Of a stretch of 64,000 nt of DNA, positions 50,735 through 59,807 are shown one piece after another. The first letter of the stretch is position 1; each line of letters opens with the position of its first letter. The DNA comes from Maricaulaceae bacterium EIL42A08. GTDB lineage: Bacteria > Pseudomonadota > Alphaproteobacteria > Caulobacterales > Maricaulaceae. Under the pieces are notes generated by a model that was not told the DNA's origin, searched no databases, and saw nothing but the letters and a program-made list of their open reading frames with translations. A program made the position numbers and the translations under genes. The stretch is from assembly GCA_024178355.1 (NCBI GenBank), contig JAMZNZ010000006.1, forward strand, positions 310,001 to 374,000. The letters run 5' to 3'.

Positions 50735-50751
50735 TGGCGGAGAGAGAGGGA
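50735..50751 (+). repeat. Attachment-site repeat, left (attL)
   Basis: TGGCGGAGAGAGAGGGA, identical to the 3' end of the tRNA-Ser gene at 58793-58809 and in the same orientation. The sequence after it (CTCTCC) departs from the tRNA sequence (TTCGAA). It marks the likely left junction of the element. Confidence 0.88.
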
Positions 50752-50821
50752 CTCTCCGCTATATCTAATAAAGCTATTATAAATCAGTTACTAAGACATA
50801 AAAGAGTGTACCGAATGAAGC

Positions 50822-50838
50822 TGTAACGTCCCGTTACA
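50822..50838. promoter_or_regulatory. Left-end palindrome shared with the integrase promoter
   Basis: TGTAACGTCCCGTTACA, 7-bp perfect arms, followed by CAT. GTGTACCG stands 8 bases before it (50806-50813). The same pair of blocks recurs in inverted orientation at 58719-58752. It may be an integrase arm-type or excisionase site, or an operator. Confidence 0.6.
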
Positions 50839-50849
50839 CATTGGAAGTT

Positions 50850-50981
50850 CTAGGCGGTGGCGTCAAGCGCCGCTAGCTCAAGCCCCGATAGCTCGGCGTC
50901 CACCTCATGCACCCTCCCGGCCAGCCTCTCCCAACCAATCAGCAGTGAGATAAGCGTCTCCCAGTAGCCGTTAGCGGCTAT
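50850..50981 (-). pseudogene. Start-less ORF remnant at the left end of the element
   Basis: An open frame of 43 codons without a start runs between two stops and reads like the end of a real protein (GYWETLISLLIGWERLAGRV and then HEVDAELSGLELAALDATA). It is probably the 3' stub of a gene lost by deletion or left at the element's edge. No family recognised. The rest of the 514-base gap 50573-51086 holds attL, the palindrome at 50822, and nothing else I can support. Confidence 0.45.
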
Positions 50982-51086
50982 TCAGTGTTTGAAGCTTTCG
51001 TTTGATTTTGGTTGTGTAGTGCTGGAGAGAGCATAGTCTCTTTTCTCCGACAAATTGTACAATTGCGTCTGAGCTAAGGAACGCCA

Positions 51087-51734
51087 ATGATTGCGGTAAC
51101 TACGCCCCAAAAGATCGCTGAATCTCCGGGACGGGGTATTGAGCTACAGCAAAGCATTCCCGACGACGCATCGGCTCCTCGCTTACACCTCCGGCGAGAG
51201 GTTTTAGATGGTTATCCGAACCTAAAGCGCGCCTACACTGAGCTGACAATTGGTGCGGGTGTTGCACTTGTACTCGCAATTCCTTCTGGGTTTGCCTCAA
51301 TTGGCTTTGGTGTCATTGTCGGTGGGCTTTTTTGGTATTTAGAGCGATACCGTCCCGCCATGCTCGGAGAACAGGAAAAACAGTTTTTTCTGGAGATAAG
51401 CGGGTCCGCTGAAGCAGCTGCCCTCCTTCAACAGGAAATGACGCAGAGACGCTGGAAGAAGCCTGACTTGGTAACTCTTGCAGAAGAGGTGGGACGGCGA
51501 GCGCAATACGCTGAGCGGACGGATTACTTCTGTAGCGAGTTTTGCATCCTCTTGTCCGAGCTTTCTGGCATCCACGGTTATAGCTTGGAGCAAGGATGGT
51601 CCGCGTATCGGCAGTGGCGCAATGGCTATCGTGATGAAGACTTGAATAGTTCAAGCCGCGCAGAGCGGATCGACAACATGTTCGGATATATAAAATCCCA
51701 TACAACGTCGGACGGAGTTTTCCGACCAAGGTAA
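51087..51734 (+). CDS. Hypothetical membrane protein of the element
   Basis: 215-residue protein not recognised. A hydrophobic hairpin at about residues 53-84 (LTIGAGVALVLAIPSGFASIGFGVIVGGLFWYL) is followed by a soluble helical part (MLGEQEKQFFLEISGSAEAAALLQQEMTQRRW) containing LSELSGIHGYSLEQGWSAYRQWRNGY. Codon use is less GC-biased than in the flanking chromosome. It stands alone on the plus strand near the left end. Confidence 0.6.
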   Translation: MIAVTTPQKIAESPGRGIELQQSIPDDASAPRLHLRREVLDGYPNLKRAYTELTIGAGVALVLAIPSGFASIGFGVIVGGLFWYLERYRPAMLGEQEKQFFLEISGSAEAAALLQQEMTQRRWKKPDLVTLAEEVGRRAQYAERTDYFCSEFCILLSELSGIHGYSLEQGWSAYRQWRNGYRDEDLNSSSRAERIDNMFGYIKSHTTSDGVFRPR

Positions 51735-52048
51735 CTGATGCGCTCAGGTTTCAGCTTTAGTGCGGAAACATGAAAGGCATTCAAGAGGGGTCGTTCAAAT
51801 TACCAAACAATCTGTCGGGTCTCTTGATGTATAGCGCGGCGCGAGTTTCCCCCTTGCCCCCTCGCGCTCCGTGAGAGTGCGAAGGCTGGGGGTGGAGGGT
51901 ATGTTATTAAATTATTCTCTCGTGAGGGGGGCGTTGAATTTAAGTGAGATGTCAGCGCCTCGAAGGGTCTCAGGTAGGGTACCAAACAAAAAGCGCTGAA
52001 GGCTCCCACATCCTAGCAAAAATGGACGCGAGGGGCATTGTAGCCCCC
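51735..52048. other. Gene-free stretch inside the element
   Basis: 314 bases between two convergent genes. It holds a GC-rich imperfect hairpin (about 51860-51883) and an AT-rich patch. A 69-codon minus-strand frame (51800-52009) has no protein-like composition. I see no supported gene. Confidence 0.5.
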
Positions 52049-52606
52049 CTACTCAGCCTGTAATGCCCGATATACTGACGCCCGACCGATGCCCAGTCGC
52101 TGAGCTATCTCGGTCTTGGCGACACCCTGAGCAGCGAGAGCCTTGATCTCTTCAGCCTTGGCCATCGCTGTGGGGGCGCGTCCCTTATACTTCCCAGCTT
52201 CCTTCGCTTTGGCGATGCCTATCCGTTGGCGCTCAAGCATCAGCGAACGCTCGAACTCTGCGACCGACCCGATGATGCCCATGACCATCTTCCCATGCGG
52301 TGTCGATGTGTCTAGGCCCATGTCTAGAACCCTGAGTCCAACGCCACGTGTCTCAAGTTCAGTCCTGATCGACATCAGGTCAGGCAGCGAGCGTGCTAGG
52401 CGGTCCAGCTTCGTCACGACCAGTGTGTCTCCCTGTCGAAGGTAGGATAACGCGGCGTCGAACTCAGGGCGCTCTTGAGCTACCGCGCTGACCTGTTCGC
52501 TGAAGACCTTGGTGCACCCTTCTCTTTGAAGCGTGTCGAGCTGATCTTGGTAGCTGTAGCTCTGATCGACCGTTGATGTCCTGGCGTATCCGACTGTCTC
52601 ACTCAT
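52049..52606 (-). CDS. Serine recombinase (resolvase/invertase family)
   Basis: 185-residue small serine recombinase. The catalytic serine is Ser11 in YARTSTVDQSYSYQDQLD. Other family blocks are present (DTLVVTKLDRLARSLPDL, HGKMVMGIIGSVAEFERSLMLERQRIGIAKAK), with a C-terminal helix-turn-helix (KTEIAQRLGIGRASVYRAL). It acts on sites with paired repeats; candidates lie directly upstream (52622-52690). It may resolve dimers of the element or invert a segment. TAGGAG precedes the ATG by 7 bases. Confidence 0.93.
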   Translation of the reverse strand: MSETVGYARTSTVDQSYSYQDQLDTLQREGCTKVFSEQVSAVAQERPEFDAALSYLRQGDTLVVTKLDRLARSLPDLMSIRTELETRGVGLRVLDMGLDTSTPHGKMVMGIIGSVAEFERSLMLERQRIGIAKAKEAGKYKGRAPTAMAKAEEIKALAAQGVAKTEIAQRLGIGRASVYRALQAE

Positions 52607-52621
52607 GTCTGTCTCCTAGTG

Positions 52622-52690
52622 TGTCTCAATGACATTTGAGACATATGAGTCCGACTGTATCAGAAGTCAATATATGATTTGTGTGATACA
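52622..52690. promoter_or_regulatory. Inverted repeats upstream of the resolvase (possible res site)
   Basis: TGTCTCAA-TGACAT-TTGAGACA (52622-52643) is a perfect 8-bp inverted repeat, 16 bases from the resolvase start. Further out, TGTATCA (52656-52662) and TGATACA (52684-52690) form a second pair. Two spaced dyads ahead of the recombinase fit the layout of a res site that also represses the gene. Confidence 0.55.
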
Positions 52691-52742
52691 CTCGACCTGA
52701 GCAGCTGAGGCGTACCAATAGAGCATGGTCTATTGAGATGCC

Positions 52743-53351
52743 TCAGGCAGTAGAGGTCGCCGTTTCTGGTTTTCGTGCGTAGCCCATTTGGTTCCGATCA
52801 AACGTCGAGACCTCGTCTCCGCCAACGCCGTCTGGATCGGCGATTGGTTGCCCATCTTCGTCGGTTTCTATTTTGTGCTTGAAGGTCTTGTAACGCCCAA
52901 GCGCTTTGAGCGCATCATGAAGCTCGCCTTTGGTTTGCCCATACCAACCACGCATCTTGTCGGTGGCGTTCGTGTATCCCTCCCAGTGGTCGAAGAAGGT
53001 GCTGACGCTCCTACTGTAAGAGTCGACCGCTGGTCCAACCTTGCCACCAAGGCCAGAGGCGCGAGCTTGTGCTTTGACCTCGTCAATGCGCGCGATGAAC
53101 TGCCCTCTTAACGTTGTAGCCACATGATCTTGAAGCTTGGCCCCACCACCGCGACCGAACGCTATATCCGCCAGGTGTCTTTGGATCGAAAATAATTGTG
53201 AAGCAGCGTTATCACGTGCAGTCCGCCTCGCAAGATATCCCCTGAACAGAAAAACACCGAGCGTCAGCACCACTGAGGTAATCGGATGGTCGAGGCGGTC
53301 GAATCCGGAGAGCGCCGCTGCGGTTATCCGTTCTAGATCGAAATTGGTCAT
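52743..53351 (-). CDS. Hypothetical membrane-anchored protein of the element
   Basis: 202-residue protein not recognised. One membrane helix (ITSVVLTLGVFLFRGYLA, about residues 24-41) is followed by a helical soluble domain (ASQLFSIQRHLADIAFGRGGGAKLQDHVATTLRGQF, SRSVSTFFDHWEGYTNATDKMRGWYGQTKGELHDALKALG). The ATG at 53351 follows GGAGGGAG and is better than 53363. Confidence 0.6.
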   Translation of the reverse strand: MTNFDLERITAAALSGFDRLDHPITSVVLTLGVFLFRGYLARRTARDNAASQLFSIQRHLADIAFGRGGGAKLQDHVATTLRGQFIARIDEVKAQARASGLGGKVGPAVDSYSRSVSTFFDHWEGYTNATDKMRGWYGQTKGELHDALKALGRYKTFKHKIETDEDGQPIADPDGVGGDEVSTFDRNQMGYARKPETATSTA

Positions 53352-53570
53352 CGCTCCCTCCAACGCAACTGTTTTGCTTAGCCTAATGCTGGTGCTGTCA
53401 GAAGAAACTGCCCGTTAGCCGGCACGCGGTCAGAATGCTAGCATGACCAGCCGCCCACGCCTCCGTCCACAACCACTTCAACCACGACCGATCCCTAGAA
53501 CGCCGATCCAGATTTAAGGACCTTCGCGACGCCGCCCTCATCGAGTGGCGCGATTGGCTGAGGACCTAAA

Positions 53571-53804
53571 TTAACAGACGCGTCTGCTCTCGTATAACCT
53601 TGGCGTAGGTGTTGCCGCAACGGTCCCATTGGCGCATCCAACGATGTAAGTGCCTTGCTGTGTGGTCGAGGGAATAATCACTGTAACCCCACTTCCAGCT
53701 TGCGCTTCTGCGTTGGGTTGCCCCAGTAAAACGACACCAGTGCTCGAGCCAACGGCTAGTGCTAGCATTATTCCGAAGACAGACGCGATCTTAGCCAATT
53801 TCAT
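53571..53804 (-). CDS. Small exported protein of the element
   Basis: 77-residue protein with an N-terminal hydrophobic signal (KLAKIASVFGIMLALAVGSSTGVVLL). The short mature part is rich in Thr/Val (GVTVIIPSTTQQGTYIVGCANGT) with two cysteines. GGGAGA lies before the ATG at 53804. The family is unknown and secretion is an inference from the signal alone. Confidence 0.5.
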   Translation of the reverse strand: MKLAKIASVFGIMLALAVGSSTGVVLLGQPNAEAQAGSGVTVIIPSTTQQGTYIVGCANGTVAATPTPRLYESRRVC

Positions 53805-53996
53805 TTTTTTCTCCCAGCAGAAGGCTTTTAGGTGTTCATACCGAAGCATGAAATGGAAGGATAATGCCACCCCTCAATAACTCTTTTTTCGGATGGCGAA
53901 GTACAAATTGAATCATTAGAGAAAATCTATTTGGAGCGTCTTAGGGCATGGTCTAATGGCTCATGGTCGATCATTAACTTCGCCTTAAAGGAGAGC

Positions 53997-54941
53997 GTGA
54001 TTATTTTGGACGTCTTTTTTGTTGTAGGAAATAGTTGTGCAATGCCTTTGACGAACGGTGAGTTAGGTCCCATTCTAGCAGCCATAAGCATTATGGCCTT
54101 AAACGTTTCTACGGCGTATGGCGACGAACGGCTATCCTCAACCATATCGTCACAAGACCGGCTAGAGCGAGTTCTTGAGCTTTATGCAGAATTTCCCGAT
54201 GGTCAGGAGGTCGTGGAGTATTTTGCCTGTCAACAGGCGCGAGCTGTTCGGCGTGAAATTCGAAATCAACTTCCTGAAAATACTATAATTCACCTTCCGG
54301 AAGATATATTCCCCGCCGATAATAACCTCAAGCATGAGATAAGAACACTTACTCAGAACCTCCCTCGGCAAGAATCAACTGAATATCGGTCGGAAGTTGC
54401 GAGGTGGGCCGACTATCAAGTAACTTCTGACAATCACATTGATGATTGTGCTAACCTTCTTCTGCCATACGTCTCAGTTCAAGTGACCATTGTGGGGCGC
54501 ATTGAGCGGTCACCTCTGAGCCTGCCAGAGGAAATGCATCCTAATGCGATCGAGGCCGCCAATTTGATGCGGCTTGCGTATCTTGAAGAGCTTGGACCGG
54601 AAGCATGGGATTATCTAGTTTGTGTTGTAAGCCTTCGCCTTGAAGATGCGCCGGCTTTGGAGCCGGGGCATTCTTTCAGCAGTCCGCAATATGTTAACGA
54701 CCCGTTTGGCCAGCAGAGGGTGGAAGAGCGCCTAGATGCGCACAAGGACGATTGGCAAGCCGCTGGCTTAGACCTAAGCGGTCATAGCTTCATTTGGGCA
54801 TTAGAAACAATTTCTGAGCCTAGATTTCTTGAACTTGGTGTGGAGTTCTGTTCTCAAAGACTTCTGGAGGAAGCGGTTACCTCGCAGGAGTTGCTTGATC
54901 GTTTTAGAGAGAACCAAGCTATTTTGAATAGAGGTCGGTAA
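53997..54941 (+). CDS. Hypothetical protein of the element, possibly exported
   Basis: About 314 residues if begun at the GTG at 53997, which follows AAGGAG closely; a TTG at 53931 and an ATG at 54042 are alternatives. A hydrophobic N-terminus (IILDVFFVVG, then GPILAAISIMALNVSTAYG) could be a membrane or signal segment. The rest is acidic and helical, with cysteines in YFACQQARA and DDCANLLLPYVS. The base composition is clearly more AT-rich than its neighbours, which points to separate ancestry. No family recognised. Confidence 0.5.
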   Translation: MIILDVFFVVGNSCAMPLTNGELGPILAAISIMALNVSTAYGDERLSSTISSQDRLERVLELYAEFPDGQEVVEYFACQQARAVRREIRNQLPENTIIHLPEDIFPADNNLKHEIRTLTQNLPRQESTEYRSEVARWADYQVTSDNHIDDCANLLLPYVSVQVTIVGRIERSPLSLPEEMHPNAIEAANLMRLAYLEELGPEAWDYLVCVVSLRLEDAPALEPGHSFSSPQYVNDPFGQQRVEERLDAHKDDWQAAGLDLSGHSFIWALETISEPRFLELGVEFCSQRLLEEAVTSQELLDRFRENQAILNRGR

Positions 54942-55048
54942 AGTCAGATAAGGCGGCTAGCTTGTTGAAGTACTGTCACTTCCAATAACCCAAGTAAGAT
55001 GGGCGGGGCATGCCGGTTCCGATGGCTGCCCCACTTTAACCGGTGGCT

Positions 55049-56395
55049 ATGTGTACCTACTTAGGTGACCCCACTTCGGATCAGGCAGGGTCGGTGAGCA
55101 CCACACGCAACGTCATATCTATAGGCAATGACAAGTATCTGGATCCGTGGCTTCGTCCGGCATCGGATGCGATGAAGCAAATCATTGAGTACGCGAAGCA
55201 CGACATAGAGCGGAGCGAGGACCGAAGGCGCGCCCGCAAGCCAGCCGACCAAGCAATTTTCAACCAAATAGTCGCGGGTGTGCTCTGCGCTATCGCTAAG
55301 CACCACCTTCTCGGATTGGATGGCTGGCTAGTGACCACCAGAAGCAATGACCGTCTTGGATCTGCCGGGCGATACAAGTCGCCATTGGCCTCCAAGCCCT
55401 ATCCAAAGATTTTGGATGCGCTCGCAGCAGAAAACGCCGGGTGGATTGAGCAGCGTATTGGAGTTCAAACTAGGCTCTCTGGTGCGCCAGCGACCACGAT
55501 CAGAGCTTCAAAACGACTTCAGATTTACCTCGAGAAACACGAGGTCGATGTTGAAGATATAAAGCGCGCTGCTGGTGGTGAGATCATTCATCTCAAGGCA
55601 CCGAAAAAGGCAGGGTCGGATGGCGCTAAGCTGATCGATTACGAAGACACGGAGCAAACCAAGAATTGGCGGGATCGACTCACTCAGATCAACGAATTTC
55701 TGGAGAGCGCTGAAATCATAGTCGGTGATCTCGAGCACGTTGATCCGACACAGGTCGCTCTTCGACGGGTCTTTAATAACGGTCGCTTCGATCATGGAGG
55801 ACGACTCGTCGGCGGCTTCTGGCAGAGCATGAGTAGTAAAGACCGGTTCAACGAAATCGAGCTGGATGGCGAGTCCGTGGTTGAACTCGACTATCAACAG
55901 ATGTCGCTCTCGGTCGCCTACGGCCTAGCTGGCCATCCCCTGCCTGCTGGCGATCTCTATGCGCTGGATAAGCTTGAGAGTGTCTGGAATCCGACAATCC
56001 GCAAGCGTGTGAAGCAATACACGAACACCATGCTTCATCGGTCATCACCAATGACAAGGCGACCGAAGGACATTGAGCCTCTAATTGTCGCTGAAGGATC
56101 TAGTGAACGTGAAATCACAGCATCAATGGTGAGAGAAATGGTGCTTGCAAAACACCAACCTATCGAGGGCTGGTTTGAAACTGGCAGGGGTATGGAATTG
56201 ATGTTCCACGAAAGTGAGGTTCTCTTTTGTGTGGCCGAGGCCTTGATGAAGAAAAGCATCATTAGCTTGCCCATCTTCGACGCCATCCTCGTACCTGGAT
56301 CAGCTGCCAGTGAGGCCGAGGGGGTAATGAAGTCTGTCTTTGAACAGGTGACTGGAGGTAAGGCTCGGATCTCTAAAGAGACTGGGGCATCATAG
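55049..56395 (+). CDS. Polymerase-like palm-domain protein of the element
   Basis: 448-residue uncharacterised protein. VFNNGRFDHGGRLVGGFWQ precedes LDGESVVELDYQQMSLSVAYGLAG, where DYQQMSLS aligns with motif A of family-A DNA polymerases (DYSQIELR; Asp281 would be the metal ligand). IRKRVKQYTNTMLH near 318-330 resembles the fingers motif B (R-x3-K). LPIFDAILVP near 408-417 resembles motif C (HDE), with Asp411. The histidine and glutamate of motif C are lost, so activity is uncertain. Proteins of this pattern are usually annotated hypothetical. It may serve replication of the element. The start is ATG 55049 or GTG 55043, with no clear ribosome site. Confidence 0.65.
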   Translation: MCTYLGDPTSDQAGSVSTTRNVISIGNDKYLDPWLRPASDAMKQIIEYAKHDIERSEDRRRARKPADQAIFNQIVAGVLCAIAKHHLLGLDGWLVTTRSNDRLGSAGRYKSPLASKPYPKILDALAAENAGWIEQRIGVQTRLSGAPATTIRASKRLQIYLEKHEVDVEDIKRAAGGEIIHLKAPKKAGSDGAKLIDYEDTEQTKNWRDRLTQINEFLESAEIIVGDLEHVDPTQVALRRVFNNGRFDHGGRLVGGFWQSMSSKDRFNEIELDGESVVELDYQQMSLSVAYGLAGHPLPAGDLYALDKLESVWNPTIRKRVKQYTNTMLHRSSPMTRRPKDIEPLIVAEGSSEREITASMVREMVLAKHQPIEGWFETGRGMELMFHESEVLFCVAEALMKKSIISLPIFDAILVPGSAASEAEGVMKSVFEQVTGGKARISKETGAS

Positions 56396-56492
56396 GATTA
56401 GTTTGATAGATGGGGGTATGGATATCAACTAAGAGCTGTCTGTCCTCCTTCCCCATAGTAGGACTCATAAGAGCTAGCACGCAGCTGTACGA

Positions 56493-57167
56493 ATGACCGT
56501 AGAAGACCCCGACTTCAACAAGTTTCAGAGGAAGCTAATCCGGGCGGATGCCTACCGCGAAACCTGCGTGCTGCCTGAGTGCTCAGAGCCTACCAGCGCG
56601 GCTAGCCTTCAAGGTATCAACAAACGTTTCTGCCGAAAACACTACGAGCACTACCAGCGCCATGGAAGCCCTTACAGAGGCTCATACAAGGCCGCTGAGC
56701 TTCAATCGGCCCGGAAGGCGGCTAGGGCGTGGCTAAGATCTAATCGCGACTCTCAGGGCGTTCTGGCGGCCTTAGAGCGCATTCGGATCCTTTACCGGTC
56801 CGCAGGCCCCCATGTACCGGCCTACCGCCTCAAAGGTATGTTGCCAAAGGAGCGCGCCCGAAAAGCATGGGCGAGGCTTCGGGATGCTCAGGTGGCACCT
56901 GAAAAGATTCTCCTAGCTTGGCTCTCAGTAAACGAGGCGATCCGCACCGACACCAATGCTGATACCAAACCCGAATTCCGGCGCGTGCAAGCTGCCAAGC
57001 TTGTTCATCGGCTAGCGTCAGGCACCCATAAACGCTGGGAGCGGGAGAGAGCTGACGGGTCGAAGCACGTTGAGCGGCTTGATGTTTACCCGCGCAGCCG
57101 TGGGCGGATCTTGAGAGTGCTTGGCGAGGATATCGAACGAGCAATGGAGCCGCTGGGGTTGGATTGA
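56493..57167 (+). CDS. Zinc-ribbon (HNH-like) protein of the element
   Basis: 224-residue basic protein. The N-terminus carries CVLPECSEPTSAASLQGINKRFCRKHYEHYQRHGSPYRG, a C-x4-C...C-x2-H arrangement common in phage HNH-associated zinc ribbons. The catalytic HNH residues are not evident. The rest is helical and arginine-rich (KGMLPKERARKAWARLRDAQV), fit for nucleic-acid binding. It follows the polymerase-like gene by 97 bases and may work with it. Confidence 0.6.
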   Translation: MTVEDPDFNKFQRKLIRADAYRETCVLPECSEPTSAASLQGINKRFCRKHYEHYQRHGSPYRGSYKAAELQSARKAARAWLRSNRDSQGVLAALERIRILYRSAGPHVPAYRLKGMLPKERARKAWARLRDAQVAPEKILLAWLSVNEAIRTDTNADTKPEFRRVQAAKLVHRLASGTHKRWERERADGSKHVERLDVYPRSRGRILRVLGEDIERAMEPLGLD

Positions 57168-57346
57168 TACTCCTCATCGGCTTATGGCCTTAGAGCGCGG
57201 TCTGTTGACCTCTCAAGAGCGGGTCTACGGCTACGCCTGAGCCTGGCACCACGTTTAATTCTGCTATGCCCACATGCCGTTCAGTAACTTTTGGTGCCTT
57301 GGGTAGCCTGAAGCCGCGAAACGGCCTGTGAGCATAGTTAGATTTC

Positions 57347-58705
57347 TTATTTCCAGTATCGCTCTAGCAGCTTGTTCGTCACCCTCTTCTGGAGCTTTGC
57401 CTTTTCTTTCGCCACAGGTCCGCTGGAGTAAACATCGCCAGCGATTGAGCCGGTAACCCTGCGCTGAAGCCTGTCTATTTCGTGAGGCATCAGCTGGGCA
57501 TTCTCAGCGGCGGTGGCGTGTGTGCGTCGGAAGCTATGATTATCGACCTCCGCAGCTCCTGATGCAGGCAGGCCCAGTGCATCGCGCACCGCTGCTCTGA
57601 GTGTTTTGGCGACATTATGTGAATAACCCTGCGCGCCGGGGGTCAGTTCATCGAAGACCATATCCGTAGGGGCTTTGCCTTTGATTCTGCGCTCAAGAAT
57701 TTCCAAAGCGTCGGTCGCTACAACTGGGAACCAATCTTTCGTGCCTTTGCCGCGCTTACCGTCCTTCACGATCAGTCCTGTGATTTTGCCCTTACTGGTT
57801 TTGGTGACCTGCTCGACCCGAAGAGAGCAGAGTTCCTCAATCCTGCACCCCACAAAGAGTAGCAAGATCACGAGATCGATGTGCTTTGGCTCTTTGAGCA
57901 GCCGCTCATGTGTCCGAAGCTTTGCGATTTCCGCAGGCTCAAACGCTCGCTTCTGTAAGTTCTGCTCGGCTTTTATTTTATGGCCGCGCCATGGGTTCAT
58001 CTGCGCTAGGCCCAGCGGCAGCGCCCACTGCCAAAGGGTCCCAAGACTGCTGACTTTGTCGATCACGGTTTTGGGCGCTTGTCCCCGGTCCAAGAGGTCA
58101 TCGATATATGTGGTGGCATCAAGGAAGCTGATGTCCCTCAGCTTGGCATCTTCGACTTCGTACCACTCAGCAAACTCAGCCTGATGGCGAAGGCGCTTCT
58201 TGCGAGTGCGCTGGTCCGTAATACCCCGCCTGTCACAGTGCTCTTTGTACTCATCAGGCGCTGAGGCAAGCGTGACCTTGCCAATAGCTCTTTCCATCCA
58301 CTTGCGAGCTGTCTCATCGCCGTGGACCGCAGCAATCTTTTCAACTTCTTGATCCAATGCAGGGTGCTGGTCATCAACCACATGGACGAAGCCAGAAGGC
58401 TTGGGCTTATCCTCAAATCGCTCAGCTGGGTCGTCGGAGTACACGGCGACCTTTTTAGTCCGAGGTCGTACCTTGAACGCTTTGGCGTCTGGCAGCTGGT
58501 AAACTACCGCCGTCAGCTCTGGCAGGAGAGCGACCGCTTTTGTCTGCGCTTCTCTCCGGTCCTTGGTCTTCAAGCCTCGAACGATTTCCAGCTTGGGCTT
58601 GCCCGACGCTGTTGTGTGGAGGTGCTGAAGATCGCTCGGTATGTAAACGCGAATAGCGTATCCGCCACCGCGCCGGGTCAGGAGATTCCACTTCAAAGCG
58701 TTCAT
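57347..58705 (-). CDS. int: Tyrosine-type site-specific integrase
   Basis: 452-residue phage-type integrase. The catalytic residues are visible: Arg288 in VGCRIEELCSL, a lysine in the DGKRGKGTKDWFPV hairpin, His390-x2-Arg393 in HSFRRTHATA and nucleophile Tyr426 in GDVYSSG. An arm-binding/core-binding N-terminal half precedes (YAIRVYIPSDLQHL, LDATTYIDDLLDRGQAPKTVIDKVSSLGTLWQWALPLG). It reads away from the tRNA-Ser gene 88 bases off, which is its likely target. A palindrome shared with the left end of the element sits in its promoter. Confidence 0.95.
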   Translation of the reverse strand: MNALKWNLLTRRGGGYAIRVYIPSDLQHLHTTASGKPKLEIVRGLKTKDRREAQTKAVALLPELTAVVYQLPDAKAFKVRPRTKKVAVYSDDPAERFEDKPKPSGFVHVVDDQHPALDQEVEKIAAVHGDETARKWMERAIGKVTLASAPDEYKEHCDRRGITDQRTRKKRLRHQAEFAEWYEVEDAKLRDISFLDATTYIDDLLDRGQAPKTVIDKVSSLGTLWQWALPLGLAQMNPWRGHKIKAEQNLQKRAFEPAEIAKLRTHERLLKEPKHIDLVILLLFVGCRIEELCSLRVEQVTKTSKGKITGLIVKDGKRGKGTKDWFPVVATDALEILERRIKGKAPTDMVFDELTPGAQGYSHNVAKTLRAAVRDALGLPASGAAEVDNHSFRRTHATAAENAQLMPHEIDRLQRRVTGSIAGDVYSSGPVAKEKAKLQKRVTNKLLERYWK

Positions 58706-58718
58706 ACCCTATTAGATG

Positions 58719-58735
58719 TGTAACGGGCCGTTACA
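58719..58735. promoter_or_regulatory. Palindrome in the integrase promoter region
   Basis: TGTAACGGGCCGTTACA with 7-bp arms, 14 bases upstream of the integrase ATG. On the minus strand it continues CAT, and GTGTACCG (58745-58752) lies 9 bases before it, matching the blocks at 50806-50841. Confidence 0.6.
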
Positions 58736-58792
58736 TTTCAAGGCGGTACACTATCGCCTAAATCTCTGTTTTATATGAACTTTAAAGAGAAT

Positions 58793-58809
58793 GGCGGAGA
58801 GAGAGGGAT
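58793..58809 (+). repeat. Attachment-site repeat, right (attR, in tRNA-Ser 3' end)
   Basis: TGGCGGAGAGAGAGGGA on the plus strand, the reverse complement of the tRNA 3' end with CCA, identical to 50735-50751. Confidence 0.88.
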
Positions 58810-58882
58810 TCGAACCCTCGGAACGCTTGCGCGCTCAACGGTTTTCGAGACCGCCCCGTTCGACCACTCCGGCACCTCTCCG
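58793..58882 (-). tRNA. tRNA-Ser (anticodon CGA)
   Basis: 90-nt class II tRNA with CCA encoded. The acceptor GGAGAGG pairs with TCTCTCC. The anticodon arm reads CGGT-CTCGAAA-ACCG with anticodon CGA, a long variable arm is present, and the T-arm is GAGGG-TTCGAAT-CCCTC. It decodes UCG. Its 3' 17 bases (58793-58809) are the right attachment site of the neighbouring element, and integration leaves the tRNA intact. Confidence 0.97.
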
Positions 58883-59005
58883 CACGGGCTGCGTGGTGTG
58901 GCCCATGAGCGTGATAAAATCAACCGCCAAAAACGGTTCTGATCGACTCCGGGCGTATTTCTGGTAGTGTTTCGCGTCATACGTGATTGGAAAAGGGGAG
59001 TTGTC

Positions 59006-59335
59006 ATGAAGGAACCGATTATCGGTATGGGCATCCTGGCTTTGATGCTCACTTCCTGCGCAACCACAGAAAATATGGATCGTCAGGCACTTGTGGACGC
59101 CGGTGAGCTTACTGGCGAAGCAAGTGATGGCTCTCGTGTGAGGTGTGAAAGCGTTCGGGTTACAGGTTCGCGCCTGTCAGAACGCATCTGCCTGACCCAG
59201 CGTGAATGGGACCAGATGGAAGAAAATGCGCAGCAGGCGCGCCGTGATCGCGATGAGCAAAATCTGATCACCCTTCCAAGTGCAGCTGATGCGCCGCCGG
59301 GCGACTTTGGCGGAGGCCGTGGTCCAACACGGTAA
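59006..59335 (+). CDS. Small lipoprotein, tandem paralogue 1
   Basis: 109-residue lipoprotein with lipobox LTSC (Cys18). The mature part has DGSRVRCESVRVTGSRLSERICLTQREWDQMEENAQQARRDRDEQ, a short conserved module with two cysteines common in uncharacterised proteobacterial proteins, and a Gly-rich tail. AAAGGGGAG stands 5 bases before the ATG. The next gene encodes a close paralogue 166 bases on. Confidence 0.85.
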   Translation: MKEPIIGMGILALMLTSCATTENMDRQALVDAGELTGEASDGSRVRCESVRVTGSRLSERICLTQREWDQMEENAQQARRDRDEQNLITLPSAADAPPGDFGGGRGPTR

Positions 59336-59501
59336 CTTCGGTCTTTGTGGGCGTAGATACCGAGTATGTGCCGCCATTCCAGCGGATCAAATTCGCGTAC
59401 CAGATTAAAAAAATGAAATCTTCTTCGAAAAGGAGTCGACGTGGCGTGTCGGACCACTAGCTTACGTGACAACGACAAGCCTTATCGAAGGGGAAAACAA
59501 G

Positions 59502-59807
59502 ATGAAGGTGATTGGTGCTGTCGTCGCAGGATTTGCGGCGCTTGTTCTTGGTGCGTGTGCAACCACCGAAACGTCTAACCGTCAGGAGCTGGTCGATGCA
59601 GGGCAGCTGCGCGGTGACCAGACGGATGGTGACCGTGTGCGGTGCGAGAATGTTCGTGAAACCGGCTCTCGCATGACGACGCGCATCTGCCTGACCCAGC
59701 GTGAATGGGATGAAATGGAAGAAAACGCCCAACAGGTCGTGCAGGATCGCAACGAGCAGAGCCAGCAGGTGCTGCCGGGTGCGGGTGGGTTTGGCGGCGG
59801 TCGCTAA
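59502..59807 (+). CDS. Small lipoprotein, tandem paralogue 2
   Basis: 101-residue lipoprotein with lipobox LGAC and the same module as its neighbour (DGDRVRCENVRETGSRMTTRICLTQREWDEMEENAQQ). The lipobox region CATTE and the Gly-rich end FGGGR are also shared. The pair arose by tandem duplication. Function unknown. GAAGGGGAAAA precedes the ATG. Confidence 0.85.
   Translation: MKVIGAVVAGFAALVLGACATTETSNRQELVDAGQLRGDQTDGDRVRCENVRETGSRMTTRICLTQREWDEMEENAQQVVQDRNEQSQQVLPGAGGFGGGR

Follow-up and report, generated by a model that had tools for sequence, protein, structure and literature searches.

An integrative element at a tRNA-Ser gene

The window, that is, the whole stretch of 64,000 nucleotides that was analysed, contains an integrative element of about 8.06 kb at the 3' end of a tRNA-Ser(CGA) gene. 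The element carries two recombinase genes, three genes that are probably cargo, and a gene for a compact polymerase, next to which lies a small gene here called o224. Apart from these last two genes, which are given below, its features are as follows:

50735 to 58811, no strand: integrative element, about 8.06 kb (direct repeats, GC content, integrase adjoining the tRNA gene)
50735 to 50754, plus strand: distal att copy, TGGCGGAGAGAGAGGGACTC (19 of 20 positions match the copy at the tRNA-Ser 3' end)
50805 to 50841, plus strand: left arm of a subterminal inverted repeat, with the palindrome TGTAACG-N3-CGTTACA at 50822-50838
51087 to 51734, plus strand: 215-aa protein with a hydrophobic stretch, probably cargo (no family match)
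52049 to 52606, minus strand: small serine recombinase of the resolvase/invertase type (Pfam PF00239, E 2e-41)
52743 to 53363, minus strand: 206-aa protein, probably cargo (no family match)
53931 to 54941, plus strand: 336-aa protein upstream of the polymerase, probably cargo (no family match; absent from other loci)
57347 to 58705, minus strand: tyrosine integrase with DUF6538 and Phage_integrase domains, adjoining the tRNA gene (Pfam, PHROG)
58716 to 58752, minus strand: right arm of the subterminal inverted repeat, with the same palindrome at 58719-58735
58792 to 58811, plus strand: att copy within the tRNA-Ser gene (direct repeat)
58792 to 58881, minus strand: tRNA-Ser (CGA), the target gene, intact (ARAGORN; Rfam RF00005)

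That a bounded integrative element carries the polymerase gene is well supported. Indeed, the direct repeat at its ends is 20 nt long and has a 17-nt core that occurs only twice in the window, where 0.02 occurrences are expected by chance, while the GC content is 0.48-0.57 within the element as compared with 0.56-0.65 outside. The perfect palindrome TGTAACG-N3-CGTTACA also has only two matches in the window (0.03 expected), both just inside the element ends, and these are possibly binding sites of the integrase, of an excision factor or of a replication initiator. The core of the empty site left after excision is predicted to read TGGCGGAGAGAGAGGGA. Within the genus, the right flank with the tRNA is syntenic; the left flank lies away from tRNA-Ser in relatives, and for this reason none of them showed a clean pre-integration site. 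Among the genes of the element, none could be recognised as that of a helicase, a capsid or a relaxase, and a known defence system on it is not supported, since PADLOC models gave none. Beyond its right end lie two adjacent small lipoprotein-like genes (58967-59335 and 59466-59807), apparently tandem paralogs with 77% identity over 125 bases.

Fold and catalytic motifs of the polymerase

The polymerase gene and the parts of its product that are relevant here are listed below, with the basis of each assignment in brackets:

55049 to 56395, plus strand: compact A-family polymerase of the divPolA2 family, PHROG 4756, 448 aa (ORF, profiles, model)
55130 to 55597, plus strand: N-terminal domain, residues 28-183, made of helices and a beta hairpin, without exonuclease (secondary structure of the model)
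55802 to 55804, plus strand: R252, invariant Arg in the beta hairpin preceding the palm, as in the TGR of Pol I (conservation, profile alignment)
55889 to 55891, plus strand: D281, metal ligand of motif A (kept in 49 of 49 homologs; aligned to the Asp of DYSQIELR)
55904 to 55906, plus strand: S286, at the position of the steric-gate Glu of Pol I (Glu in none of 49 homologs)
56000 to 56014, plus strand: R318-x3-K322, O-helix motif of the fingers (aligned to the R-x3-K of Pol I)
56276 to 56281, plus strand: F410-D411, motif C, which reads HD in nearly all homologs (conservation, profile alignment)

The ORF is intact from the ATG at 55049 to the stop at 56395, and an alternative GTG start at 55043 would yield 450 aa. 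Three family-A motifs had been assigned in the initial annotation, namely motif A (ELDYQQMSLS, with D281), the R-x3-K motif of the fingers (IRKRVKQYTNTMLH, with R318 and K322) and motif C (LPIFDAILVP, with D411), and they are confirmed in these places and in this order, in register with E. coli Pol I. In alignments of 46 and 49 sequences, G251, R252, R266, D281, Y304, K322 and D411 show no or almost no variation, which means that the motifs are not due to chance, and N215, R240, F242, D302, R318 and H410 are conserved at about 90% or more. In particular, R318 is found in 48 of the 49 homologs and K322 also in 48, the remaining one having a gap. The window protein keeps every conserved position except H410, which is replaced by a Phe that is unique to this copy among the roughly 46 sequences covering the position. 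Such a substitution would fit a catalytically degenerate protein, be it the window copy or its whole subgroup, that is kept for DNA binding; the retention of both metal ligands and of R252, R318, K322, D302 and Y304, together with the intact ORF and partner gene, makes this quite improbable.

Alignment of the family profile with that of Pol I by hhalign gave a score of 44.9 (P=1.5e-4) over residues 230-444. Among the controls, 40 block-shuffled profiles of Pol I did not exceed 29.6, and neither the reversed Pol I profile nor those of the integrase, the serine recombinase and o224 scored above 16.1. In this alignment, R252 corresponds to the Arg of TGRLSS, D281 to the Asp of DYSQIELR, R318 and K322 to the R-x3-K of the O-helix, and residues 410-411 to the HD of HDE. 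The AlphaFold (AF2) model of the polymerase (pLDDT 89.4, pTM 0.86) has the order of strands and helices of a palm with inserted fingers, so that the palm fold to which the motifs had pointed is present, with motifs A and C on the expected strand and hairpin. Indeed, D281 is borne by the strand 275-282, R318 and K322 by the helix 315-330, and D411 lies in a hairpin between the strands 407-409 and 412-416. A Foldseek search of the PDB returned family-A polymerases as all of its best 50 matches (best E 1.4e-6, probability 1.00). The whole-length TM score to Pol I in Foldseek is low, around 0.3, and therefore the thumb and the N-terminal parts differ from those of Pol I. Ahead of the palm the model has a single long helix (202-220), and a coiled-coil thumb of two antiparallel helices is not evident. 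The initial annotation had seen no 3'-5' exonuclease domain, and none is present either by Pfam or in the model. A profile search of PDB sequences gave no polymerase match and related the N-terminal domain only weakly to eS19, MarR and ORC2 (E 0.017-1.1), which makes a winged helix possible and a weak lead.

Thus the protein has the fold and the motifs of a family-A polymerase, a conclusion that is well supported. That the protein, searched by itself, matches no polymerase in Pfam, NCBIfam or the PDB sequences, and that its whole-length TM score to Pol I is about 0.3, could be taken to mean that the motifs are coincidental and that the protein is not a polymerase, which is very improbable and strongly disfavoured by the invariance across 49 homologs, by the in-register profile alignment with its controls and by best Foldseek matches that are exclusively of family A.

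Family membership and nucleotide pocket

The window protein matches PHROG 4756, a family of 'unknown function', with an E value of 4e-33, and a barbavirus member matches it with 3e-64. Barbavirus relatives were recovered by both sequence and fold searches; in particular, the best Foldseek matches among viral models are phage proteins of equal size, one of which, from Barba31A, is named 'DNA polymerase'. Proteins of this kind in barbaviruses and other Caudoviricetes were called 'divPolA2' by Yutin et al. in 2024, who describe an active-looking palm, a thumb without homology to other polymerases, the lack of an exonuclease and a structural similarity to mitochondrial and N4 RNA polymerases (PMC11348598). 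The same authors consider divPolA2 to be probably not the replicative enzyme of the phage and suggest a repair polymerase or an RNA polymerase instead (PMC11348598). The literature found reports no activity for proteins of the divPolA2 family. The earlier view of this pattern as merely hypothetical no longer applies, as the phage members have carried a name since 2024 (PMC11348598).

The window protein belongs to the same sequence family as divPolA2 and shares with it the palm and fingers, an unrelated globular N-terminal domain, the lack of an exonuclease and a length that is mostly 400-450 aa. It differs in being encoded on a chromosomal integrative element rather than in a phage, in the dedicated zinc-motif partner gene of its subgroup and in a motif C that reads FDA. 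Whole-genome searches with PHROG 4756 found matches, a few of them weak (E around 1e-4), in 5 of 61 genomes of relatives, in 32 of the 385 class genomes and in 26 of the 399 phylum genomes, whereas 14 well-known genomes used as controls gave none. Related polymerases are thus carried by about 7-8% of the genomes sampled at the level of class and phylum. Scans of genomes and viral contigs with single family members gave no or few matches, and the family alignment offered no sufficiently conserved stretch for such a scan. By tblastn, relatives were found in 183 phage records, all of them of Rheinheimera or Vibrio phages, and in three alphaproteobacterial plasmids or second replicons. The family as such, known mainly from phages, had been discovered before; what is new is its context on a chromosomal element, the partner gene, the link to RNase HI, the analysis of the steric gate and the spread over about 7-8% of the genomes sampled.

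The active-site pocket sets the family apart from the polymerases to which it is otherwise similar. The steric-gate Glu of Pol I, which we take to be Klenow E710, is present in 51 of 51 Pol I and T7 DNA polymerases examined, and in 20 of 20 T7-like RNA polymerases the position is Gly. Among the 49 family members it is never Glu; 25 have His, and the remaining ones have F, G, M, S, N, Y, A, W or L, with S, G, F, M, Y, N or A in the window subgroup and Ser286 in the window protein. The residue that follows the HD of motif C is Ser, Ala or Gly, not the Glu of Pol I, and T7 RNA polymerase has Ser here. The O-helix Tyr, kept in Pol I and in T7 RNA polymerases, is replaced by Asn, Phe, Gly, Ala, His or Ser. 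Overall, the family shares palm, fingers and catalytic landmarks with Pol I and the T7 single-subunit polymerases, from which it differs in lacking the exonuclease, a recognisable Pol I thumb, the gate Glu and the O-helix Tyr, and in having HDS or HDA instead of HDE as motif C. Judging from these residues, the nucleotide pocket is unlike that of a standard DNA polymerase, and its relaxed sugar gate would accept ribonucleotides as well; the consistent loss of the gate Glu therefore leads to a sharp prediction on ribonucleotide use.

These same residues bear on a different possibility, namely a DNA-dependent RNA polymerase of the single-subunit type, which would transcribe genes of the element or the phage from promoters of its own; this is one of the options of Yutin et al. 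for divPolA2 (PMC11348598). A gate position without Glu, a motif C that in most of the family reads HDS, like the HDSFGT of T7 RNA polymerase, the reported likeness to mitochondrial and N4 enzymes (PMC11348598) and the weak matches of a few family members to RNA polymerase profiles are all consistent with it. However, the family profile favours Pol I (P 1.5e-4) over T7 RNA polymerase (P 0.068, out of register), the Tyr common to the O-helices of both is absent (N/F/G/A/H/S), a promoter-recognition domain is not recognisable and the best Foldseek matches are DNA polymerases, all of which makes an RNA polymerase unlikely, although it stays a serious rival reading.

A further comparison is with the TV-Pol family of Iyer, Abhiman and Aravind (2008), for which priming was predicted (PMC2579912). 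TV-Pols are likewise A-family polymerases of mobile elements, 400-600 aa long and without exonuclease, and the hairpin Arg (R252), the two Asp (D281 and D411), the Asp of the fingers (D302) and R318-x3-K322 are all present in the window protein. The genomic context is also similar, as TV-Pols occur with gamma-delta type recombinases and lambda-type integrases and the window element has a serine recombinase and a tyrosine integrase. On the other hand, no D5 helicase was recognised on the window element and the antiparallel coiled-coil thumb is not evident. According to Iyer et al., TV-Pols are never found with an adjacent nuclease (PMC2579912). Some relatives of the window protein, in contrast, do have an adjacent nuclease, RNase HI. 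The profile link to MAP_030 of Microcystis phage Ma-LMM01, presumably the TV-Pol of Iyer et al., is weak (P 0.003), with motif A in register. MAP_030 (506 aa; L063:22746-24266, minus strand) lies beside a transposase gene, has YD..CH and HDG motifs and carries His at the steric-gate position, as do most members of the divPolA2 family. A protein of the Polaromonas plasmid pH8NP1 (L150:3287-4792), annotated as 'Clp protease N-terminal domain-containing' and encoded near a recombinase gene, has the polymerase-like motifs SGRLY, NLQN, YDIENCH, VKQALLALIYGA and LQHDGF, and is likely a misannotated TV-Pol.

Partner gene, neighbours and possible function

Downstream of the polymerase gene lies the second gene of the pair:

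56493 to 57167, plus strand: partner gene o224, 224 aa, with a zinc motif and a helical body (adjacency in 8 loci; AF2 model)

Homologs of o224 were found at seven further loci, all with a polymerase of the window's subgroup. The gene always adjoins the polymerase on the same strand, upstream of it at some loci and downstream at others; counting the window, it is present beside 8 of the 14 polymerases of the subgroup and beside none outside it. In a search of 385 class genomes, the sole match was the window's own gene. The motif C-x4-C...C-x2-H is invariant among the homologs, and the AF2 model (pLDDT 82.5) is mostly helical. Foldseek returned nothing significant for o224. Its five best matches, all to N4 virion RNA polymerase, are non-significant (E 0.1-0.34), not independent and not used as evidence. 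N4 virion RNA polymerase is an A-family enzyme.

Beside o224 there is no third conserved gene, and the upstream genes are not homologous across loci, with the exception of RNase HI. This nuclease is encoded directly beside the polymerase at 4 of the 44 loci, in four different genomes (L078:8981-9472, L071:9319-9834, L077:9316-9792 and L083:10403-11056), which is unexpected for TV-Pol-like genes. A serine recombinase is found near about 14 of the 44 loci, as compared with a class-wide background of 76 matches per 162 Mb, and many of the related loci also have tyrosine integrases nearby. In one related element, an HNH endonuclease gene (L080:9228-9776, minus strand) lies between the polymerase and the serine recombinase. 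Helicases are absent from the first 25 Pfam families listed for genes adjoining related polymerases.

The closest functional parallel to such a pair is CcPol, an A-family polymerase of SCCmec elements that was shown biochemically to prime de novo with its partner MP (PMC7581432). CcPol itself is closely related to Pol I, as which it is annotated; MP belongs to the SSBs with an OB fold, and the operon includes a helicase (PMC7581432, PMC10061031). Both systems thus place an A-family polymerase of an integrative element beside a small dedicated partner gene. The window partner, however, is a helical protein with a zinc motif, by which an OB-fold SSB like MP is rejected, and the element has no recognisable helicase.

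Collectively, the profile alignment with its controls, the model, the conservation and the bounded element bear out a mobile-element polymerase of the A family, as the initial annotation had proposed; the replicative or priming role that it had put forward alongside stays conjectural. The protein is probably an active, compact A-family palm polymerase of the divPolA2 kind, similar to TV-Pol, and from its motifs and context we infer catalytic activity, priming, ribonucleotide use and binding of o224 to the polymerase.

As to the role, the best single guess, which falls just short of being probable, is that the polymerase primes and carries out short synthesis for the excised element, with a relaxed choice of sugar and with o224 as DNA-binding partner. 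In this scheme, the integrase would excise the element from tRNA-Ser, and the polymerase would then initiate short strands on the single-stranded DNA of the element and lengthen them, its relaxed sugar gate taking ribonucleotides too. o224 would contribute DNA binding or make initiation stable, the replication of the element would be completed by host enzymes, and RNase HI, which is borne by the element in some relatives, may remove RNA primers. Several findings count against this reading: TV-Pol and CcPol primases accompany D5-type helicases, of which none was recognised on the element; o224 does not have an OB fold like MP; H410 of motif C is Phe; the whole-length TM score to Pol I is low; and phage relatives of the protein are found next to a regular replicative polymerase.

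A rather unlikely alternative, though a serious one, is a primer-dependent accessory DNA polymerase that is not a primase and that would act in gap filling, repair, recombination or completion of the second strand after mobilisation. Indeed, phages that have a member of the family also have a PolB-type replicative polymerase, and the gene neighbourhoods of these members vary; since they sit beside this regular replicative enzyme, the family need not replicate its carrier; the absence of a helicase from the element and of an exonuclease from the protein points the same way. The missing gate Glu and the RNase HI genes next to some of the polymerases suggest instead a ribonucleotide chemistry, and the dedicated partner gene likewise counts against an accessory polymerase. 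Returning to priming, it is possible, if doubtful, that an A-family subunit without the gate Glu and o224, with the addition of RNase HI in some cases, form an undescribed two-protein priming system that starts the replication of small integrative elements lacking a helicase. If true, this would add a further route of primer making for mobile elements, beside the DnaG and AEP primases and CcPol-MP.

The window thus offers a small, bounded and chromosomal example of divPolA2 with a conserved partner gene, by which the question of whether these proteins are primases, RNA polymerases or repair polymerases becomes a two-gene problem of biochemistry, for a family that occurs in marine phages and in about 7-8% of the class and phylum genomes sampled.
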